Of a DNA stretch of 30,192 bases, positions 1,988-23,522 are shown piece by piece. Within the stretch, counting starts at the first letter, position 1. Every line of letters begins with the position of its first letter. The notes beneath the pieces were generated by a model that searched no databases, was not told where the DNA came from, and saw only the letters and a list, made by a program, of their open reading frames with translations. The translations under genes were made by a program, and so were the position numbers. Source of the DNA: a virus; IMG/VR virus record IMGVR_UViG_3300029258_004408, positions 1 to 30,192 of that record, one strand, 5' to 3'.

Positions 1988-4789
1988 TTACACGACAGTC
2001 CATGTACCAAGTGCCGAAATTGCAATCCATTGTGTGTCATCAACAGCAACAAATGTTACAGCACTTCCTATAGTCGTCGAACGAGCATAACCAGCAGCAG
2101 CACTTACGTCGCCAACAATTCGTACTGTATCGCCAGCAGCTGCTGTTACTCTAATCCCATTTGCGTCTTCACAAATGAACGTGAATCGCAAACCAGCCGA
2201 AGCAGAAGGCAACGTGTTGTAATTTTCTGCTGGCGTTCCAACATTCGAAATCGTTTTACCACTTTCAGAAGCCAACAAGATATTCGGGCTACCCACGCCT
2301 GCTGTGCTTGCTTCATACGGATGCAAGCCTGTCGGATAGTCACTGTGGTAATCAATGTCGTGTGCTGAAAGTTCAGTATCACCATTCAGTACGCGAAATA
2401 CCAGCTTGTCGCCAGCCAATGCTCCTGCCGTCAATGTTACTGTATCGCCATCGGTTTCTACATAATCATCTGTAATTACCAGCAATTGACCATTTTTGAA
2501 AACCAACAATGAGTGAGTACCAGTCGGATAACTACCGCCTACCAGATTGAAAACTGTTTGTCCCCCAGCAGCTGTATGCTTTTCATACAACCCAACTGTT
2601 CCAGCTTCATTGGCTCCAACTCTCAAAATGGTAACATTCTCATTCAATGCACGACCGACATTGAATGTAACAGTATCGGAATCTGTTTCTACATAGTCGT
2701 ATGCTCCACCAAGACGCTGGATCAAACCACCCGAATAAACCTGAATGTCTTGGTAACCTGGACGATAAGTAAATGATAGATCAAAAGCAGTCTGTCCAGC
2801 TGTAGCTGTGAAATCTGCACGTGCTGTAATGACAGATTTTGCACCGCCAGAAAACTGGATAAAAACTACTTCGTCACCAACATCCAAACCTGCATTGAAC
2901 GTGACTGTGTCAGAATCAGTTTCAACGTAATCATTCGATGCACCAACAGTCTGCCTGTTTCCATTACGGAAAACTTGAAGCGCGTTTACACCGGTATCAT
3001 ATTGGCTGGAAAGGTTGAAAACTGTTTGCCCAGCCGTTGCAACATGACGCTCATAAATTGTTGGTGCACCAGTACCAATAGCTGCGACTTCTTTCCATAC
3101 AGTCCCAGTGTCAACAAACAACTGATTGGTATCAGTTGCTCGATACCAGCGTCCTTCAATACCGGGTGAAGGTCTGCTTGCTAATAACCCTTCAGAGTAG
3201 TGATCATGGTCATTCAATGTATCTAACGCTGCTTGGACATTTTGATCCGATGCAGAAAGGATATTGTCAAAGTTATCTGTATATGCAGAAACAGCTGTTG
3301 CAGCTCCACCAACACCTATCCACAACGAACCATTATCAACTGCCAATACTGCGTCGTCAGTCGAACGATACCAACGCCCATTGATATTAGCAGCTGGGCG
3401 ACTTGACAATAACCCCTCAGAATAGTGAGAGTGGTCATCCAACGTATTCAGAGCTTTTTGTGCTGTATCATCAGCAGCAGAAAGGATATAGTCAAAATTA
3501 GTCGTATCGACATGTACACTTGCTGCAACCGCTGTGGCGGATTCTGTATCACCATAAGGAATGCGGAAAATCAAAACGTCATTGAGGTTTGCGGGATTTA
3601 CAAGCGTAACCGTGTCACCGTCAGTTTCCGTATAATCTGCTGTAAGTGATTGAAGCATCCCATTTTTGAAAACCAACAACGCATTAGTACCAACAGGATA
3701 AGCACCAGCTAAATCAAAAACTGTTTGTCCAGCCGTTGCAACATGGCGCTCATACAACCCCACAGTACCAGCGTCATTTGCACCAACTCTCAAAACAGCA
3801 ATCTGCTCGTTGAGTGCACGGCCAGAATTGAACGTAATCGTTGTCTCATCAGTTTCTACATAGTCATAACTTGCGCCAGCTCGTTGGAGTACGCCTGACG
3901 AATAAACAAGGATATCTGCATGGCCAATTCGGTAACTAAAGCTCAAATTGAAAACTGTTTGACCACCTGTAGCTGTAAAATCTTGACGTGCTGTAATAAC
4001 GTTTTTCGAACCGCCAGAATGTTGGAGGAAAATTACTTCATCACCAGCATCCAAACCGACATTGAACGTAATTGTATCGTCATCGGTTTCAACATAGCTA
4101 TTTGACGCACCAACAGTTTGCCTGTTTCCATTAACATAAACTTGGAGTGCATTATAGCCTTCAGTGTACTTACTGGAAAGATTGAAAACTGTTTGTCCAG
4201 CTGTTGCTACATGACGTTCATAGATCGTTGGGGAACCTGTTCCAACTGCGGCAATTTCACGCCATTGTATTCCGTTGTCAACGAAATACTGATGAGTATC
4301 TGTTGCATAGTAGCGATAGCTTTCGTTACCAGGTAAAGGCCGATTATCACGAAGTCCTTCCTCATACTGGTCATTGAATGTATCTCTGACTGCTTTTTCA
4401 GTAGGAACCCTGGTATGCAAACCTGGATTGCCAACTGTCGTAACAAGCACTAAACCGTTGGTTAGCTGCTTTCCTGTGACATCTTGGTATTGGGGGATGT
4501 TTCCTGCTGTTGTGCTTGCAGTAGGAGCAAGCACATAATTCCCAAGGTCGTTAACTATTTCATCAATAGCATCTTGGACATCATCAGCTGACAAACCAGA
4601 AACTGAATTGTCATAAGACACTGCTGATGCAGCAACAGCACCTCCCGCACCAGGAAGGGCATTATCAATCCCTTTTAGGTGTGCAGAAACCTTATTTGTC
4701 GATTCACTCCAAACAGGGTCAGGAGTGTAATTTGTCGGCGTGTAAGTAAAGCCTACCTTCTCTGCTCTTTGAGAACCTGTCAGTCCCAT
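1988..4789 (-). CDS. Large tail fibre with tandem beta modules
   Basis: The protein has 933 residues. It contains two tandem units (about residues 142-425 and 535-830). Each starts with a GRWYRATDTNQLFVDTGT-type segment and continues with three beta modules built on AGQTVFNL, a central LQVYVNGNRQ-type strand, a YVETDxDTxTF strand and GDEV. In total about six to seven copies of the module are visible. Such modules form elongated fibre shafts in tailed phages. The C-terminus (TTIGSAVTFVAVDDTQWIAI) resembles a fibre-end domain. The start has a GGAGATGAGAA leader and follows a 190-base structured leader. The two units are close enough in DNA for recombination to change fibre length. Confidence 0.85.
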   Translation of the reverse strand: MGLTGSQRAEKVGFTYTPTNYTPDPVWSESTNKVSAHLKGIDNALPGAGGAVAASAVSYDNSVSGLSADDVQDAIDEIVNDLGNYVLAPTASTTAGNIPQYQDVTGKQLTNGLVLVTTVGNPGLHTRVPTEKAVRDTFNDQYEEGLRDNRPLPGNESYRYYATDTHQYFVDNGIQWREIAAVGTGSPTIYERHVATAGQTVFNLSSKYTEGYNALQVYVNGNRQTVGASNSYVETDDDTITFNVGLDAGDEVIFLQHSGGSKNVITARQDFTATGGQTVFNLSFSYRIGHADILVYSSGVLQRAGASYDYVETDETTITFNSGRALNEQIAVLRVGANDAGTVGLYERHVATAGQTVFDLAGAYPVGTNALLVFKNGMLQSLTADYTETDGDTVTLVNPANLNDVLIFRIPYGDTESATAVAASVHVDTTNFDYILSAADDTAQKALNTLDDHSHYSEGLLSSRPAANINGRWYRSTDDAVLAVDNGSLWIGVGGAATAVSAYTDNFDNILSASDQNVQAALDTLNDHDHYSEGLLASRPSPGIEGRWYRATDTNQLFVDTGTVWKEVAAIGTGAPTIYERHVATAGQTVFNLSSQYDTGVNALQVFRNGNRQTVGASNDYVETDSDTVTFNAGLDVGDEVVFIQFSGGAKSVITARADFTATAGQTAFDLSFTYRPGYQDIQVYSGGLIQRLGGAYDYVETDSDTVTFNVGRALNENVTILRVGANEAGTVGLYEKHTAAGGQTVFNLVGGSYPTGTHSLLVFKNGQLLVITDDYVETDGDTVTLTAGALAGDKLVFRVLNGDTELSAHDIDYHSDYPTGLHPYEASTAGVGSPNILLASESGKTISNVGTPAENYNTLPSASAGLRFTFICEDANGIRVTAAAGDTVRIVGDVSAAAGYARSTTIGSAVTFVAVDDTQWIAISALGTWTVV

Positions 4790-6494: not shown

Positions 6495-9155
6495 TTAGAC
6501 ATCATAGCAAACTGCAATTGTCGAACCCAAAAGGCCCGTGAGTGTAAGTGTGTCTGCTCCGTTGTCCACCTTACCAAGCAGCATGACTGTGAATGGCAAC
6601 GTCCCCATCTCGTTGGTATTCTTATATTGACCAGAACGCCAACGTGTGGTTTTGCTTGTGCCTTCCGAAACGGTTGTGCCTGGAATATCTTCTGCGCTCG
6701 TGACTGTTGCAGAAGAACCCGTAACAACCATCCATTTGGACTCACCTGTATTGGCATCCATCTGTCCCGACCAACCAAGGTCCAACTCAACATCTCTGAC
6801 TGTCTTGGTTCCCGGTTCGGGTGCGGTGAGTGTAAGGTAACCATAGATAGCCGCATCCACATAGGCTGTCTGCTGCTTACCACCAAGTGACGTCTCGGAA
6901 TAGTCGTTGCCACCATCGGCAAGACTTACGCCAATTGCCGTCGTGTTCGTCCAGATATAGGCCGTGAATTCACCTTTCTGGAGCGACGTACTGGCCTGCG
7001 TTGCCAAACTGTCAATCTTGCTGTTGGTTGTAGACAAGTCAGTCCCGTTGAAGCCACTGACAACTCTGCTATCGACGGTTGACAACTCATTATCGACAAC
7101 AACAATTCTCGAATCGACAATCGTGACTCTGGAATCAACTGTCGAGAGCTCTGTGTCGATAACGTCAACCTTGGAATCAACTGTCGATACCTGCACTCCA
7201 ACGGAAGTGACTTCGGAATCAATGACATCAACAACAGAATCGACTGTCGAGAGTTCTGTGTCAATGACATCGATCTTGCTGTCAACAGTGCTAAGGTCAG
7301 TTCCAACACTGTCAACCTGAGAACCAACGCTCTGGACTTCAACTTCCACACTGTCAATCTTGCTGTCAGTAACAACATGCGCAGACAGCACCTTGCTATC
7401 CAGAGTAGACAACTCATCATCGACAACAACAACACGAGAATCGAGCGTCGAAATCTCGGTGTCAATGACATCGATCTTACTGTCAACGGTTGACAACTCA
7501 TTATCGACAACAACAATTCTCGAATCGACAATTGTAACTCTGGAATCGACAGTTGAAAGCTCTGTGTCGATAACATCAACCTTGCTATCGACAGTACTGA
7601 CCTGAGTCCCAACGGAAGTGACTTCGCTGTCAATAACGTCAATAATCGAGTCAACAACAACAAGTCTCGAATCGACGGTACTGACCTGTACTCCAACGGA
7701 AGTAACTTCGCTGTCAATGACATCAACAACAGAATCAACAACCGACAGCTCTGTATCGATAACGTCAACTTTGCTGTCAACTGTCGAAAGTTCTGTGTCA
7801 ATAACATCGATCTTACTGTCAGCAGTTGACAACTCGTTATCAATGACAACAACACGAGAGTCAACCACCGTAAGTCTGGAATCGACAGTGCTAACCTGTG
7901 TTCCAACACTATCCACCGAAGACGAGATATCAGGGTCAGTATCAACAACCTCGGTGTAACGACTTTGGTAAATCGTCGAACCCGTCAGTTGATAATCGCA
8001 GACAATCTGATAGGCTTCAAGTGCTTGACCAGTTGCAACTGTCCAATCCCTGTAGTAACGACCAACGTCACTACGAGTCATCAAGCCACGAGCAAGTGCA
8101 CTACTTCCATCTTCGTAGAGTATTTGCAAGTAAGCTTGATTGCCATCGGGGTCTTCCATCAAGCCATTTTGGTCATACAAGTACAACCAGATTCTGATGG
8201 TTCTCGCCGATGTTTCATCACGCACAATAACCGGTGGAACAATAACCTTGGCCAACACATTGTTGTCCAAAGCATCGACCATACCAGTCAATGTACTGAT
8301 GGCACCTGACTGCACATCCATCTTGCTATCAACAGCCGACGTTTGTGTCCCAACAGAATCAACCTTGCTATCGGTCACAACGTGCGCACTCAACACCTTG
8401 GAATCCAGCGTTGATATCTCGTCATCAATGACAACCACACGAGAATCAACCACTGTAAGACGTGAGTCAACTGTCGAAAGCTCTGTGTCAATGACATCGA
8501 TCTTGCTGTCAACGGTGCTGACTTGCGTTCCTACGGAAGTAACTTCGCTATCAATGACATCGATGATCGAGTCGACAACAACAAGTCGAGAATCAGTCGT
8601 TGAAACCTGAACTCCAACCGAATCTACCTTGCTGTTAGTGGTGCTAAGACTCGCACTTGTCGGAATGTCATCAATCTTACTTTCGATAGTACTGAGATCA
8701 GTCCCGTTGAAGCCGCTGGTAACTTTGCTATCAACAGTAGATAGCTCGTTATCGACAACAACAATTCTCGAATCGACAATCGTGACTCTGGAATCAACTG
8801 TCGAAATTTCTGTGTCGATAACGTCAACCTTGGAATCAACTGTCGATACTTGAGTCCCAACAGATGTAACTTCGGAATCAATGACATCGACAACCGAATC
8901 GACGACGGATAATTCGGTATCAATTACATCTATCTTACTGTCGACAACTGATACTTCGTTGTCGATGATAACGACTCGCGAGTCAACAATCGTAACTCGT
9001 GAATCCGTCTGCACTACATTGCTGTCGACAATGACCAATCGTGAATCTACCGTCGATATTTCACCATCGACCACTGTCAACTTTGAGTCAATAGTGGAGC
9101 ATTGTACCCCTACACTATCAACTCTCGATCCGATTAATCGTTCCCTAAATGACAT
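6495..9155 (-). CDS. Heptad-repeat fibre shaft protein
   Basis: The protein has 886 residues. Nearly the whole chain is a 7-residue repeat of the type STVDSKV / DVIDTEL / VVVDNEL, with hydrophobic residues at positions 3 and 7 and Asp at position 4. This is an a/d heptad pattern and suggests a long parallel (probably trimeric) coiled-coil or related shaft. A globular insertion at about residues 305-410 (VPPVIVRDETSARTIRIWL start) interrupts it, and a C-terminal domain (about 720-886, from GEFTAYIWTNTT) ends the chain. The likely role is a tail fibre or whisker. The start follows an excellent AGGAGG site. Repeated codons create long shadow frames on the opposite strand. Confidence 0.8.
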   Translation of the reverse strand: MSFRERLIGSRVDSVGVQCSTIDSKLTVVDGEISTVDSRLVIVDSNVVQTDSRVTIVDSRVVIIDNEVSVVDSKIDVIDTELSVVDSVVDVIDSEVTSVGTQVSTVDSKVDVIDTEISTVDSRVTIVDSRIVVVDNELSTVDSKVTSGFNGTDLSTIESKIDDIPTSASLSTTNSKVDSVGVQVSTTDSRLVVVDSIIDVIDSEVTSVGTQVSTVDSKIDVIDTELSTVDSRLTVVDSRVVVIDDEISTLDSKVLSAHVVTDSKVDSVGTQTSAVDSKMDVQSGAISTLTGMVDALDNNVLAKVIVPPVIVRDETSARTIRIWLYLYDQNGLMEDPDGNQAYLQILYEDGSSALARGLMTRSDVGRYYRDWTVATGQALEAYQIVCDYQLTGSTIYQSRYTEVVDTDPDISSSVDSVGTQVSTVDSRLTVVDSRVVVIDNELSTADSKIDVIDTELSTVDSKVDVIDTELSVVDSVVDVIDSEVTSVGVQVSTVDSRLVVVDSIIDVIDSEVTSVGTQVSTVDSKVDVIDTELSTVDSRVTIVDSRIVVVDNELSTVDSKIDVIDTEISTLDSRVVVVDDELSTLDSKVLSAHVVTDSKIDSVEVEVQSVGSQVDSVGTDLSTVDSKIDVIDTELSTVDSVVDVIDSEVTSVGVQVSTVDSKVDVIDTELSTVDSRVTIVDSRIVVVDNELSTVDSRVVSGFNGTDLSTTNSKIDSLATQASTSLQKGEFTAYIWTNTTAIGVSLADGGNDYSETSLGGKQQTAYVDAAIYGYLTLTAPEPGTKTVRDVELDLGWSGQMDANTGESKWMVVTGSSATVTSAEDIPGTTVSEGTSKTTRWRSGQYKNTNEMGTLPFTVMLLGKVDNGADTLTLTGLLGSTIAVCYDV

Positions 9156-9171
9156 GTCTGTTTACCCTCCT

Positions 9172-10146
9172 TTAGTTTGTGACCAAGAGTTGTCTAATTA
9201 TGAAATCACCAGTATGTGTATCTGAAACGTTTGTTCCCAAACGTGTTAAACGACATTCTATTTCCACCGTATTTGACGTAATTCTCGCTGCTGGAATCGC
9301 AACCGTGTTCACGGTCGTTAAATTTGCAGTATTTGGTGTCGAAATCGTATACTGCGAACTATAAACCGAACCACCATTATAGGCTTCATTCTTGTCATGC
9401 ACAACATAGTCAAATTTCAAAACGATATTTTTGGAACTTTCTGCTGTTGACATAAAGTAGACCAAAAAAATCGTTGCTCCATTTGCATCCATATTGGCAA
9501 GTTGTGAAGCCAGCTTAAAAATTACGTCATGATCCTCACTTGCAACAAAATCTGCTGAGTCATAGAAATGATAGACATCAGCATCAGCCATAAACGGAGG
9601 ATTGTCGCCTTCAAAATAATCCAAATCACGATTGAGAACAAAGCCTGCCCCGCCGCCAGAAGCCAAATCCCAAGCAGTTCCAGTATCAATAAAAAGTTGC
9701 TGTGTATCTGTAGCCCAAAATGCCCTGCCTTGAACACCGAAAGCAGGTCGATTCGCCAGAATGTCAACAATAACAAGTGCGCCAGTTGCCAGATGTTCAA
9801 GCGCATCCTTAACAGTTACGCCTGTAACAGCTGAATCGTTATGAACATCGCTGGCTTCAAGAATTCCATCTGGACCAGTTAAATCTAATGCACTTTCGGG
9901 TAATTCTTGAATAAAAACAATATAAGCTACATGGTGAACATGAACCAAACTTTTGAACCAACCAACAACATCGTCATCATCGTAGTTAAACTTTGTGAGA
10001 AGTGTATTTGACGGGTTACTGCTGTCTGGCGCATCTGTTAAAACGATTTTTGACTGTTCTTCATATTCGTAAAAATATGCACCTGCTGGTATTGACCTCT
10101 TCAACGGCCCCGCAAAAAACCGTTGAGTTACCTTATATTTGAGCAT
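9172..10146 (-). CDS. Tail fibre-associated structural protein
   Basis: The 324-residue protein begins MLKYKVTQRFFAGPLKRSIP. It has a central RPAFGVQGRAFWATDTQQLF segment that matches the RPSPGIEGRWYRATDTNQLF segments of the 933-residue fibre. The shared module suggests both are adhesion or fibre proteins of the same tail structure. The C-terminal half is rich in beta-forming sequence with DYVVHDKNEA and EIECRLTRLGTN. The gene is the first of the tail operon, behind a GGGGATATACC leader and a candidate promoter about 130 bases upstream. The exact structural role is unknown. Confidence 0.75.
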   Translation of the reverse strand: MLKYKVTQRFFAGPLKRSIPAGAYFYEYEEQSKIVLTDAPDSSNPSNTLLTKFNYDDDDVVGWFKSLVHVHHVAYIVFIQELPESALDLTGPDGILEASDVHNDSAVTGVTVKDALEHLATGALVIVDILANRPAFGVQGRAFWATDTQQLFIDTGTAWDLASGGGAGFVLNRDLDYFEGDNPPFMADADVYHFYDSADFVASEDHDVIFKLASQLANMDANGATIFLVYFMSTAESSKNIVLKFDYVVHDKNEAYNGGSVYSSQYTISTPNTANLTTVNTVAIPAARITSNTVEIECRLTRLGTNVSDTHTGDFIIRQLLVTN

Positions 10147-11961: not shown

Positions 11962-12038
11962 TGGTGGACGTGAGTGGAGTCGAACCACCGGCCTCTCGCT
12001 TATCAGGCGAACGCTCTGACCAACTGAGCTACACGTCC
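11962..12038 (-). tRNA. tRNA-Ile(GAT), copy 2
   Basis: Acceptor GGACGTG/CACGTCC, discriminator A, encoded CCA. Anticodon arm TTCGC-CTGATAA-GCGAG gives GAT. Its anticodon stem is identical to that of the permuted tRNA at 18201-18278, so the two may share origin. Confidence 0.95.
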
Positions 12039-12044
12039 AAAAAC

Positions 12045-12122
12045 TGGTGAGCGCGGTGGGATTCGAACCCACGACCACCGGATTAAAAATCCGATGCTCT
12101 AACCGGACTGAGCTACGCGCCC
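12045..12122 (-). tRNA. tRNA-Lys(TTT), copy 1
   Basis: Acceptor GGGCGCG/CGCGCTC, discriminator A, encoded CCA. Anticodon arm TCGGA-TTTTTAA-TCCGG gives TTT. Confidence 0.94.
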
Positions 12123-17494: not shown

Positions 17495-17586
17495 TGGCTG
17501 ACAGGTGAGGACTCGAACCTCATTTCTCGGTCTACGCAGAGACCCAAGAAAGCTTCCCACGCCCCATTAGGCTTTCGCTCCTGCCA
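17495..17586 (-). tRNA. Atypical tRNA-like gene, anticodon unresolved
   Basis: Acceptor TGGCAGG/CCTGTCA, a normal T-arm (TGAGG-TTCGAGT-CCTCA), discriminator G and CCA are clear, so it is tRNA-like at 92 nt. No normal anticodon arm is found. The visible stems are GAAAGC/GCTTTC with a 17-base loop and GGTCT/AGACC with a 6-base CTGCGT loop. Either the second is an anticodon arm with a shortened loop (then GCG, Arg) and the D-arm is enlarged, or it is a class II variable arm and the anticodon arm is degenerate. Confidence 0.6.
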
Positions 17587-17590
17587 ATAA

Positions 17591-17670: not shown

Positions 17671-17742
17671 CCAGCACCAAAAATCGCAATGAGCTTGGGT
17701 TTCCTCAAATGGAAGAAGTATCTCATTGCTGAAGCGTACTGG
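17671..17742 (-). ncRNA. 72-nt hairpin RNA module, copy 1
   Basis: The RNA starts CCAGTAC and ends GTGCTGG (7 bp with one G-U). An internal loop GCTTCAG faces CGATTTTTG, then comes a perfect 7-bp stem CAATGAG/CTCATTG and an apical part with a TTCC/GGAA hairpin. The same outer stem and the same internal-loop sequences bracket the permuted tRNA at 18169-18303, so this is a repeated module. Its function is unknown; I know no matching ribozyme or riboswitch. Confidence 0.6.
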
Positions 17743-17750
17743 ATTTCTTT

Positions 17751-17759
17751 TCAAAGAAC
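17751..17759 (-). promoter_or_regulatory. boxA-like element before module copy 1
   Basis: Minus strand TGTTCTTTGAAAA, which matches the boxA form I recall from Bacillus rRNA operons. It lies between tRNA-Val(CAC) and the 72-nt module. Confidence 0.5.
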
Positions 17760-17761
17760 AA

Positions 17762-17837
17762 TGGTGGGCGATAGAGGACTCGAACCTCTGATCTCTTGGT
17801 TGTGATCCAAGCGTTCTACCAACTGAACTAATCGCCC
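17762..17837 (-). tRNA. tRNA-Val(CAC)
   Basis: Acceptor GGGCGAT/ATCGCCC, discriminator A, encoded CCA. Anticodon arm CTTGG-ATCACAA-CCAAG gives CAC. Its acceptor is identical to tRNA-Val(GAC). Confidence 0.94.
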
Positions 17838-17843
17838 AAATTC

Positions 17844-17921
17844 TGGTCGGTGCGACTGGAATCGAACCAGCATTTATCCACATTAAAAGTGTGGCGCAAG
17901 ACCAATATTTGCTACGCACCG
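17844..17921 (-). tRNA. tRNA-Lys(TTT), copy 2
   Basis: Acceptor CGGTGCG/CGCACCG, discriminator A, encoded CCA. Anticodon arm CCACA-CTTTTAA-TGTGG gives TTT. It differs widely from copy 1, so it is not a recent duplicate. Confidence 0.93.
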
Positions 17922-17931
17922 ATCACTGTAT

Positions 17932-18008
17932 TGGCGGAGCTGACGGGACTCGAACCCGCAACCCTCGGATCGACAGTCCGATACTCTTACCAGTTGAGCT
18001 ACAGCTCC
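17932..18008 (-). tRNA. tRNA-Asp(GTC), copy 1
   Basis: Acceptor GGAGCTG/CAGCTCC, discriminator G, encoded CCA. Anticodon arm TCGGA-CTGTCGA-TCCGA gives GTC. Confidence 0.95.
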
Positions 18009-18009
18009 A

Positions 18010-18086
18010 TGGCGGCTCTGACCGGACTTAAACCGGCTTCCTCTACCTTGACAGGGTAGTGACTCGTTCACTTCGTCTTCAGAGCC
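18010..18086 (-). tRNA. tRNA-Asp(GTC), copy 2
   Basis: Acceptor GGCTCTG/CAGAGCC, discriminator G, encoded CCA. Anticodon arm CTACC-CTGTCAA-GGTAG gives GTC; T-loop TTTAAGT and a D-arm rich in A/G are divergent. One base separates it from copy 1. Confidence 0.88.
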
Positions 18087-18088
18087 TT

Positions 18089-18163
18089 TGGTGACCCTAC
18101 AGGGATTCGAACCCTGAATGCCAGACTGAGAATCTGGTGAGTTGCCAGTTACTCCATAGGGCC
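18089..18163 (-). tRNA. tRNA-Glu(CTC)
   Basis: Acceptor GGCCCTA/TAGGGTC, discriminator A, encoded CCA. Anticodon arm CCAGA-TTCTCAG-TCTGG gives CTC. Confidence 0.94.
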
Positions 18164-18168
18164 AATTC

Positions 18169-18303
18169 CCAGTACCAAAAATCGCAGAGAGAAATTTTAG
18201 CGCTCTACCAATTGAGCTATACACAACCGAAGTTGTGCAACAGGACTCGAACCTGCAACCTCTCGCTTAATAGGCGAAGTAACCCTCCACTGAAGCGTAC
18301 TGG
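18169..18303 (-). tRNA. Circularly permuted tRNA, anticodon ATT, within module copy 2
   Basis: In transcript order this RNA has the module strand CCAGTACGCTTCAG, then a tRNA 3' half (18278-18232: anticodon arm TTCGC-CTATTAA-GCGAG, variable AGGTT, T-arm GCAGG-TTCGAGT-CCTGT, acceptor TGCACAA, C). A UUCG loop follows, then the tRNA 5' half (18226-18201: acceptor TTGTGTA, TA, D-arm GCTC-AATTGGTA-GAGC, G). The module strand CGATTTTTGGTACTGG closes it. The acceptor halves pair 7 of 7 (one G-U) plus a C-G pair that caps the UUCG tetraloop. Joined at positions 26/27 the halves form a complete tRNA with anticodon ATT. There is no intact 5' half in front of the 3' half. Whether it matures to a functional tRNA is unknown. 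Confidence 0.7.
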
Positions 18304-21362: not shown

Positions 21363-23441
21363 TCAGCCCCCAAATGGTTTAGCGTCTAATCTGTCTTTTG
21401 GACCACTCAATTGAGGCACCTGAGAGAAACCACCCTGAGATAGGTATTTCAGCATTTCTTCATGAATTCTAACCCATGAAGCATCTGGATGCGTATTCAG
21501 TGCACGTAACAACATTGCAGTCATGGCACCTTGGTATTTGCCATCGATAAAAGCATCTGCGCTGGTTTGGTCGTCACGACAACCAGAAATCAGCATATGA
21601 CGCTGATTAGTATAAGAAACATCATTTTCCCCGCGATTTAGACTCCTCCAACCCAACTTGTTTACTTTCATATCCCGACCTCTCGAACGGGCAATAATAT
21701 CGGTTGGAGGCGCAAGAAACCGCTCTTTATTAGGATGAGAATCATTTGACTGAGGTTTCAAATCGCGGTCCATAGTACCACTATGACAAGCGTCACAAAC
21801 AAACGTCAAAAAAGCACCCTCTGGAACCCGCTTGAAATGGTCCGCTAAAATGTCGTCTGACAATGGGTTATCCCAGTCCAAATCATGTGGACAAAGAATC
21901 TCGTCCAAACTGTCCTTCAACTCATCGCCATTACGATCTCTGACTTGACTATTGTGAACAAAAACCCCCGCTGTCAAAGCAAAATTGTGATACTTTTCAA
22001 CAGTTATATCATAAACCGGTATAACTTCTGATTCTTCAACAACTTCAACGATTTTGTGGTTTTTAACCGTTCTTTTTTCTTCAATACAGAATTTACAATT
22101 TGAATCAAATTTATTACGCCGAACATGCCAACGAGTATGGTTAGCTTTTTTGTTTGCCTCCACAAGTTGTAAACGTCTCTCTTCTGAATGGCTTACCAAA
22201 TAAAATCTGCTATTTTCGTCTACAGCAGTTTTCTTAAATGAAGCCACAGCTTTCCTACGTGCAGCTTTTGTATGAGATTTAGAACGATTTTCATGCAATG
22301 CCAAAACACGCAAGTCACTGTTTTTGTCAACAAAAGATGCTTTCAAAGCTTGCACAACTTTTTGACGATATTTTGGATTTTGCCAATCCTTTTTCCTTGC
22401 TCTACTCGATGCAATACCAAGCCTTTTCCTGAACTCTTTATCATTCTTAACTCTTTCTCGAAACCCATTACGATTCCATTCTGCCATCCTTTCAGCATCT
22501 TTCTTTTTACGTTCTTCACTATGAGAATGAATCTTAGCATGTTTTGTCCAAGTCAACAGTTTAAGATTTTCAGGAGTATTATTCGCTTTGTTAAAATCAC
22601 AATGATGTAATACTCCCTTATACCCTTTTTCTAACTCTCCTTGTTCATAAGCCACTAACCGATGAGTATAATAATAGCATCCTGATTCCTCAAAAATCCC
22701 CGATTTTCTCAGCTCGTTTCTATAACTCAGCGAAGGAACATAACACAATTCATAACCATCCAATCGTTCCCCTTCTTGCCTATTGCTCGTTTTACGATAC
22801 AAAGGCATTAATGAATCACCCGCTACTAATTTCGCCGCTTCCTTATAAGTGCCATCCCTAAGCATAAAAAGATGATCAGAAGTACAACTGATCTCTTCCC
22901 CATTATCAACCTTTATTCTAACGGTATTGCTATATTTTGTTACTCGTGGAGAATGGGCCAATCCTGGTACAATTTTTCCATCCTCTGCACACGAGTAAAC
23001 CCAAAATTTTCTGTCATGAAATTCTTTCGTCAACTCCTCAAGTGTCCTCTCAGTTCCATCAAGAAGGCTAATTCTTGTATCTCCAGAAAAACAGCCGTGA
23101 CCTGAATACTGAAAAATCAAAAGTTCGCCCGCCTTAGCATTGTCAACAAGCCACCCAAGTCGTTGTAAGATATTAGCTTGCGTAGCTCGTTCATCTGTCA
23201 ACATGCGTACATTATCTGGGTCAAACCCGTATTTAGTAGTGAGCTTTTCCCACAAGTTGTTAACATCGTTCACACAACCATTTAGGTCTGCTCCAGACAT
23301 CGCATATTTGTTAATTCCAACCAACAAAGCTTTATGTCCTGTTACTGGTTGTGTCACGGGTTGTCCTCCATTATCATTTGGCTCATCATTTTCGCTTGGG
23401 AAAAGCCAACCAAAAAGACAGCCTTTCTTCTCTTTTGCCAT
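21363..23441 (-). CDS. Caspase-family protease (C14) interrupted by an HNH intein
   Basis: Starting at ATG 23441 (AGGAGAATAGAA leader) the precursor has 692 residues. The N-extein carries HKALLVGINKYAMSGADLNG and ends in FQYSGHG with the catalytic His at 115. The intein is residues 117-497: it begins CFSGDTRISLLDG, has HNH-like VLHHCDFNKANNTPENLKLL near 277-297, and ends VYDITVEKYHNFALTAGVFV-HN. The C-extein starts with Ser (SQVRDRNGDE) and has the catalytic DACHSG (Cys 552) and ISGCRDDQTSADAF. Spliced, the protease would be 311 residues with Cys at 171. Metacaspase-like proteases cleave after Arg/Lys or Asp; the specificity is unknown here. Splicing should be needed for activity, because the intein splits the His motif. 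Confidence 0.92.
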   Translation of the reverse strand: MAKEKKGCLFGWLFPSENDEPNDNGGQPVTQPVTGHKALLVGINKYAMSGADLNGCVNDVNNLWEKLTTKYGFDPDNVRMLTDERATQANILQRLGWLVDNAKAGELLIFQYSGHGCFSGDTRISLLDGTERTLEELTKEFHDRKFWVYSCAEDGKIVPGLAHSPRVTKYSNTVRIKVDNGEEISCTSDHLFMLRDGTYKEAAKLVAGDSLMPLYRKTSNRQEGERLDGYELCYVPSLSYRNELRKSGIFEESGCYYYTHRLVAYEQGELEKGYKGVLHHCDFNKANNTPENLKLLTWTKHAKIHSHSEERKKKDAERMAEWNRNGFRERVKNDKEFRKRLGIASSRARKKDWQNPKYRQKVVQALKASFVDKNSDLRVLALHENRSKSHTKAARRKAVASFKKTAVDENSRFYLVSHSEERRLQLVEANKKANHTRWHVRRNKFDSNCKFCIEEKRTVKNHKIVEVVEESEVIPVYDITVEKYHNFALTAGVFVHNSQVRDRNGDELKDSLDEILCPHDLDWDNPLSDDILADHFKRVPEGAFLTFVCDACHSGTMDRDLKPQSNDSHPNKERFLAPPTDIIARSRGRDMKVNKLGWRSLNRGENDVSYTNQRHMLISGCRDDQTSADAFIDGKYQGAMTAMLLRALNTHPDASWVRIHEEMLKYLSQGGFSQVPQLSGPKDRLDAKPFGG
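21951..23093 (-). mobile_element. Intein with HNH homing endonuclease domain
   Basis: The coding segment of the 381-residue intein runs from Cys codon 23093-23091 to Asn codon 21953-21951. Terminal blocks are CFSGDTRIS at the N-end and YHNFALTAGVFVHN before Ser +1. The centre has an HNH pattern (HHCDFNKANNTPEN, then LTWTKHAKIH) and repeated helical segments like SEERKKKDAERMAEWNR that resemble DNA-binding nuclease-associated modules. It should copy itself into intein-free alleles of the same protease gene. Confidence 0.9.
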
Positions 23442-23462
23442 TTCTATTCTCCTGATATAATT

Positions 23463-23522
23463 TGGCGGGCAGGCTTTTGACCCACCCGCCAACAGGTATA
23501 GTCCCAAGTTTTCACTTGGACT
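23463..23522 (-). other. Two hairpins before the caspase gene
   Basis: TTGGCGGG pairs with CCCGCCAA (ends near 23493 and 23463), and AGTCC-AAG/CTTGG-ACT pair around 23500-23522. No U-tract follows, so rho-independent termination is doubtful. The first hairpin ends about 15 bases before the caspase ribosome site and could influence its translation. Confidence 0.45.

Follow-up and report, generated by a model that had tools for sequence, protein, structure and literature searches.

Two RNAs in a phage tRNA array are probable Y RNAs, one of them with a tRNA-mimic head

Why would a virus carry the same RNA module twice in a tRNA array, once around a permuted tRNA and once with hardly any content? 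The question is raised by the window, that is the whole stretch of 30,192 nt analysed here from the record IMGVR_UViG_3300029258_004408. On its minus strand, the 5′ strand of the module (CCAGTACGCTTCAG) lies at 17742-17729 in copy 1 (c1) and at 18303-18290 in copy 2 (c2), and the 3′ strand (CGATTTTTGGTRCTGG) at 17686-17671 and 18184-18169, respectively. The first-pass annotation of this DNA had reported such a repeated module, and both copies are present with exact strands where it had located them. A scan of the window allowing up to two mismatches found no third copy of these strands. Repetition of the 14-mer alone is not notable because about 3 such repeats are expected by chance in 30 kb, whereas pairing of the 14-mer with the 16-mer downstream of both copies is beyond chance, with an expectation roughly estimated at 0.0015.

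Both copies are built around a common core, which consists of a 7-bp outer stem (P1), an asymmetric internal loop (GCUUCA/GAUUUUUG), an 8-bp inner stem (P2; GCAAUGAG/CUCAUUGC in c1 and GUGGAGGG/CUCUCUGC in c2) and the sequence UACUUC preceding the insert. The shorter RNA, c1, comprises 72 nt (17671..17742, minus strand) and is devoid of a tRNA-like module. Its P1 is formed by CCAGTAC (17736..17742) and the 3′ strand GTGCTGG (17671..17677). The internal loop has GCTTCA on its 5′ side (17730..17735), kept as GCTYCA in nine copies from the same phage lineage, and GATTTTTG on its 3′ side (17678..17685), also conserved in the lineage copies. The 5′ strand of P2, GCAATGAG (17722..17729), pairs with 17686-17693, and both stems are supported by covariation. 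The apical region (17694..17721) contains ATACTTC, of which TACTTC is invariant across the lineage copies, and a 21-nt insert predicted from sequence and fold to form a weak hairpin (UUCC/GGAA). The predicted fold of c1 has a free energy of −25.1 kcal/mol and a z-score of −4.7. An initial description of this copy as empty, with a simple 7-bp stem hairpin inside, was accurate with respect to the pairing, but the inner stem has 8 bp and the copy holds an insert.

The longer RNA, c2, comprises 135 nt (18169..18303, minus strand). Its 5′ and 3′ ends pair as a long interrupted stem, in which P1 is formed by 18297..18303 and GTACTGG (18169..18175), the internal loop by GCTTCA (18291..18296) and GATTTTTG (18176..18183), both conserved in the lineage, and P2 by GTGGAGGG (18283..18290) and CTCTCTGC (18184..18191), again with covariation in both stems. 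The interior is a tRNA fold in permuted order. It begins with an anticodon-arm-like hairpin, CGC-CTATTAA-GCG, plus AG (18262..18276 together); this AG has its partner in the CT that follows the D arm (18200-18199). Then come a T arm (GCAGG-TTCGAGT-CCTGT, 18240..18256), an acceptor-like stem closed by a cUUCGg loop and without CCA (18220..18239), and a D arm (GCTC-AATTGGTA-GAGC, 18202..18217). The T and D arms were recognized in an arm scan and in the alignment of model R1 (see below), in whose training set the acceptor pairs covary. D, T and acceptor arms are all present.

Pairing in the stems is supported by sequence comparison. The 14-base strand led to a close relative, L258 (contig IMGVR_UViG_3300017991_000384), which has a major head protein 97.6% identical to that of the window, a partly collinear tRNA array and both copies of the module. 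In the four copies of the window and L258, 15/15 pairs are kept throughout and double changes occur at 4 pairs. The compensating change that had been noticed in the outer stem is real: pair 5 of P1 is U-G in one window copy and U-A in the other, and L258 adds C-G. Among nine copies from the phage lineage of the window, 98.5% of stem cells are paired and 8/15 pairs show double changes; when the partners were slid by 1-3 columns, at most 58% of the cells were paired.

Further relatives of the permuted RNA were retrieved by structure. A scan of fetched loci for a T arm, a closed acceptor hairpin and a D arm gave the RNA of L258 and one in L150, and a DNA pattern built from these two gave 70 matching stretches from IMG/VR plus 8 from contigs of bacterial genomes. 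The matches are mostly permuted tRNA folds, and nearly every permuted one has its own outer stem, internal loop and inner stem around it. The D arm and CUAAA were prescribed by the pattern and are therefore not counted as evidence; the stems and the acceptor were left free. A conserved CUAAAA after the D arm, considered as the sign of a splice site, was dropped since it was partly forced by the pattern. Seven pattern matches (L311, L312, L340, L369, L371, L373 and L374) were set aside as ordinary tandem tRNAs, and the short patterns GCTTCAG..CGATTTTTG and CCAGTACGCTTCAG gave chance matches, only L258 being real among the matches listed. Altogether, the module recurs and its internal loop is conserved in close relatives; where the first-pass annotation had proposed to look for the conserved strands in other phage tRNA arrays, L258 retains the pair of copies and many phages have the same stem with and without a permuted tRNA-like insert. 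Among ribonucleotide-reductase (RNR) relatives (about 45% identity), only L150 carried a permuted tRNA-like RNA. This 52-kb record, in which neither TROVE nor DUF2828 was found, has three permuted tRNA-like RNAs plus a normal-order tRNA-Phe(aaa) in a similar stem (2368-2880 and 3360-3480). YrlA-like permuted RNAs also occur in bacterial genome contigs with the labels Clostridium puniceum, Lachnospiraceae, Armatimonadetes and Gammaproteobacteria (L370, L372, L375 and L376).

Two covariance models were built from these relatives, with the window and L258 excluded from R1. R1 comprises 19 permuted-tRNA RNAs, 18 from TROVE-positive records and one from L364, which was not screened. R2 comprises 17 short RNAs without a tRNA from the same phage set (L331 was not screened for TROVE); a short RNA at L322:2262 was removed from its alignment, in which it fitted poorly. 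In the R1 training set, 29/38 pairs show double changes and 90% of cells are paired, compared with at most 45% in slid versions; covariation is present in the R2 set as well. R1 matched c2 over the full length of the model (18306-18166, model positions 1-143; 118.7 bits, E 7e-30) and the L258 counterpart of c2 with 113.6 bits, whereas tandem tRNAs reached up to 58.8 bits over part of the model only. R2 matched c1 over positions 1-69 of 69 with 25.2 bits and an E-value of 0.001, which is modest, the E-values of both models being roughly calibrated. With 17.1 bits for c2 and 18.8 bits for the L258 counterpart of c1, R2 gave exactly three matches in the 55 kb of the window and L258, and none in 600 kb of controls.

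The Rfam model of YrlA (RF02553) scored c2 at 33.5 bits, below its gathering cut-off of 69, and scored a normal tandem tRNA pair of the window (11982-12097, minus strand) higher, at 37.6 bits. Sub-threshold matches of RF02553 in tRNA arrays are therefore unreliable. In a test of 36 records, among them Ro60 phages, not one reached the cut-off, and tandem tRNAs scored equally. RF02553 was thus rejected as arbiter of YrlA membership because it also matches tandem tRNAs, and for the same reasons c2 is called YrlA-like here and is not filed under that family.

The neighbourhood of the related RNAs points to a protein partner. In two loci, L376 and L366, the sequence runs on into genes readable as Ro60. 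The arrays of both also include examples of this stem that enclose a short insert in place of a tRNA. A TROVE domain was found in 36/50 records with a permuted RNA versus 1/48 control records, which were RNR relatives (Fisher 4e-14). The lineage of the window was defined by contigs with similar major head proteins, of which 32 were searched: TROVE was present in 8, an R2 match in 8 and both in 7. Head proteins of the 8 TROVE-encoding relatives are 86-93% identical to that of the window, and one protein of the lineage matches TROVE, vWA_Ro60 and the Deinococcus Rsr structure 2nvo. In one relative, G103, c1-like and c2-like RNAs stand in tandem among tRNA genes, another module copy is located directly upstream of the Ro60 ORF some 54 kb from the tandem, and an additional YrlA-like RNA lies at 91.5 kb. 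In G104, two module copies directly precede the Ro60 gene. Most lineage copies read UACGCUYCAG..UACUUC..CGNUUWUYGGUA, which is the module of the window. Outside the lineage, arrays of YrlA-like and short Y-type RNAs were observed directly upstream of a TROVE gene in Xanthomonas phage Olaya (L377:3519-4136) and in 10KY502B (L378:2539-3132). In both, the TROVE gene is annotated as hypothetical protein (FIG00441406); the RNAs of Olaya are without annotation and part of one RNA of 10KY502B is annotated as tRNA-Thr.

Y RNAs are small RNAs that presumably hold on to the ring-shaped protein Ro60 by a stem. Because the same architecture recurs in Ro60-encoding phages and, in the lineage of the window, directly upstream of the Ro60 gene, we interpret c1 and c2 as probable phage-encoded Y RNAs, with a probability of roughly 0.8. 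According to this reading, c2 is YrlA-like with a tRNA-mimic head, c1 is without such a head, and the stem is predicted to be bound by the Ro60/Rsr ring protein. A protein-binding internal loop was among the roles first suggested for the module, and it is the one that the sequence data favour. The stem with its P1-loop-P2 order would tether either RNA to the ring. The tRNA mimic of c2 would be a second, effector module at the far end of a single unspliced RNA and might recruit a tRNA-recognizing partner to Ro60, for instance PNPase as in the bacterial systems studied. Together, such a partner and Ro60 could steer RNA decay or quality control during infection. With only its short hairpin, c1 may occupy or gate Ro60 without recruiting the partner of c2.

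A less probable variant keeps the Y RNAs and exchanges the protein. In a phage lacking Ro60, c1 and c2 could serve a Ro60-like paralogue outside the TROVE family, such as DUF2828/DUF7788, or a host protein. The window fragment gave no match to TROVE, to the lineage Ro60 or to DUF2828, and neither did the L258 fragment; in L406, a 51-kb contig fragment with an identical major head protein, there was no match to TROVE or the lineage Ro60. Moreover, the stem of the window is without the unpaired U and the subsequent 2-bp pairs typical of most relatives in Ro60 phages, and other permuted RNAs are accompanied by DUF2828 instead of TROVE. On the other hand, close relatives have this very variant of the stem immediately upstream of a TROVE gene, so that we regard a non-TROVE partner as unlikely.

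The first-pass annotation had taken the interior of c2 for a permuted tRNA. The fold is there, but on sequence grounds a tRNA mimic is the better reading. The alternative is a circularly permuted tRNA gene, from which a working tRNA would arise by cutting of the flanks, joining of the ends between positions 28 and 29 of the anticodon stem and excision of the acceptor loop. The tRNA core is good, U33 is present in 32/37 non-redundant related RNAs, and joining at 28-29 would restore the anticodon stem, since positions 42-43 find their partner in the CU that follows the D arm in 37/37, and in the contiguous 5′ bases in only 22/37. The tRNA fold thus opens within the anticodon stem, where the Y stem takes over. 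However, the pairing of positions 42-43 is expected equally for an unspliced mimic, with which the opened anticodon stem is compatible and which does not require ligation. What speaks for the mimic is the closed acceptor with its short loop (some relatives have only 5-6 bp and a GNRA closing loop), a CCA that is almost never encoded (2/37), and serine anticodons that some relatives bear on bodies with a short variable loop. No bulge-helix-bulge was found in the flanks, and the identical type of flank occurs without any tRNA. A permuted tRNA gene is thus very improbable; a self-splicing permuted tRNA had been a working idea and was abandoned once the neighbouring genes of related loci were read as Ro60. 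Even harder to credit is that the module acts as a self-cleaving or self-ligating ribozyme or as a ligation scaffold, as had also been proposed. A conserved asymmetric internal loop between two covarying stems would suit such a function, but a relaxed Rfam scan (up to E 5) returned no ribozyme family on c1 or c2, the module accompanies a protein gene in related phages, and in its copies without a tRNA there is nothing that could be joined.

Another kind of permuted tRNA-like RNA, distinguished by ACAGCAA in its 5′ strand, was seen in phage records without TROVE that encode DUF2828/DUF7788 (L361, L306, L315, L316, L317, L327, L337, L345 and L360; L317 and L360 were not screened for TROVE). DUF2828/DUF7788 was detected in 9/12 tested records with this RNA type and without TROVE, and its vWA part resembles Ro60 (hhalign probability 98%). 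In L361, the RNA (7885-8019) ends just before the DUF2828/DUF7788 ORF (8032-9459). Judging from these sequences, the pair is possibly a parallel Ro60-like system; no paper naming DUF2828 in this context was found in the literature searched.

Y RNAs without a tRNA-like domain exist in Deinococcus. Like these and the short RNAs of Ro60 phages, c1 has a stem, an internal loop and a short apical hairpin and stands in tandem with or near a YrlA-like RNA; it differs in its variant internal loop and in lying on a fragment without a Ro60 gene. YrlA of Salmonella (PDB 6CU1), as outlined in PMC8394870, combines a Ro60-binding stem with a tRNA-like domain, in which D, T and acceptor arms are present; the effector domain of bacterial YrlA binds PNPase, and the RNA is a substrate of DusA and TruB (PMC8394870). 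The likeness of c2 to YrlA (RF02553) lies in the stem formed by its 5′ and 3′ ends and in the three tRNA-like arms, and its length falls within the 90-150 nt given for YrlA (PMC8394870). Unlike YrlA, c2 is below the RF02553 cut-off, resides in a phage tRNA array, retains an anticodon-like hairpin and has no Ro60 gene on its fragment. Circularly permuted tRNA genes are known in algae and archaea (PMC3978253, PMC3218864). With these, c2 shares a 3′ half placed before the 5′ half and the acceptor end as the joint; it departs from them in the missing bulge-helix-bulge, in Y-type flanks that are also found without a tRNA and in giving no sign of a mature tRNA.

Phage Y RNAs have already been reported. 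They are described for mycobacteriophages (Chen et al. 2014, as cited in PMC12282133), Listeria phage CKA15 has an Rsr-like protein and putative Y RNAs (PMC12282133), and some jumbo phages encode TROVE proteins (PMC7824862). The lineage studied here has in common with them a phage-encoded Ro60-type protein and/or Y RNAs. It is a different phage lineage, however, its RNAs reside inside an array of 33 tRNAs, and the array copies of G103 are tens of kb away from the Ro60 gene. To the reported cases, the present RNAs add a variant stem and the placement in a tRNA array.

Work on Ro60 and Y RNAs has covered very few bacteria so far. In our data, YrlA-like RNAs accompany Ro60 in many phages, and the predicted binding stem is re-used with different heads. 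As a tentative and rather doubtful extension, a modular Ro60 system might be common in large phages, with a single binding stem that was copied many times and fitted with varied effector heads, among them tRNA mimics of several isotypes. In the lineage of the window, extra copies would have moved into the tRNA array, with a possible role in tRNA decay or in protecting the tRNAs of the phage against anticodon nucleases. R1 and R2 provide a means of finding such RNAs, and the lineage supplies matched pairs of Ro60 and Y RNAs. tRNA finders overlook or misname YrlA-like RNAs, parts of which are labelled tRNA-Thr, -Asn or -Glu by ARAGORN and in one phage record.

Some minor observations were made along the way. 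A tRNA-like gene with an odd D-arm and anticodon region lies unannotated between two tRNA-Asn genes of the window (17499-17590, minus strand) and was missed by ARAGORN and Rfam. Another tRNA-like gene, in the 331-kb phage record L126 (5115-5260), has its D arm and variable loop separated by a long insert and may be an interrupted tRNA. At 21363-23507 (minus strand), the window encodes a caspase-like protein (Peptidase_C14) that is split by an intein with an HNH domain; its homologue in L258 has 336 aa and is apparently intein-free.
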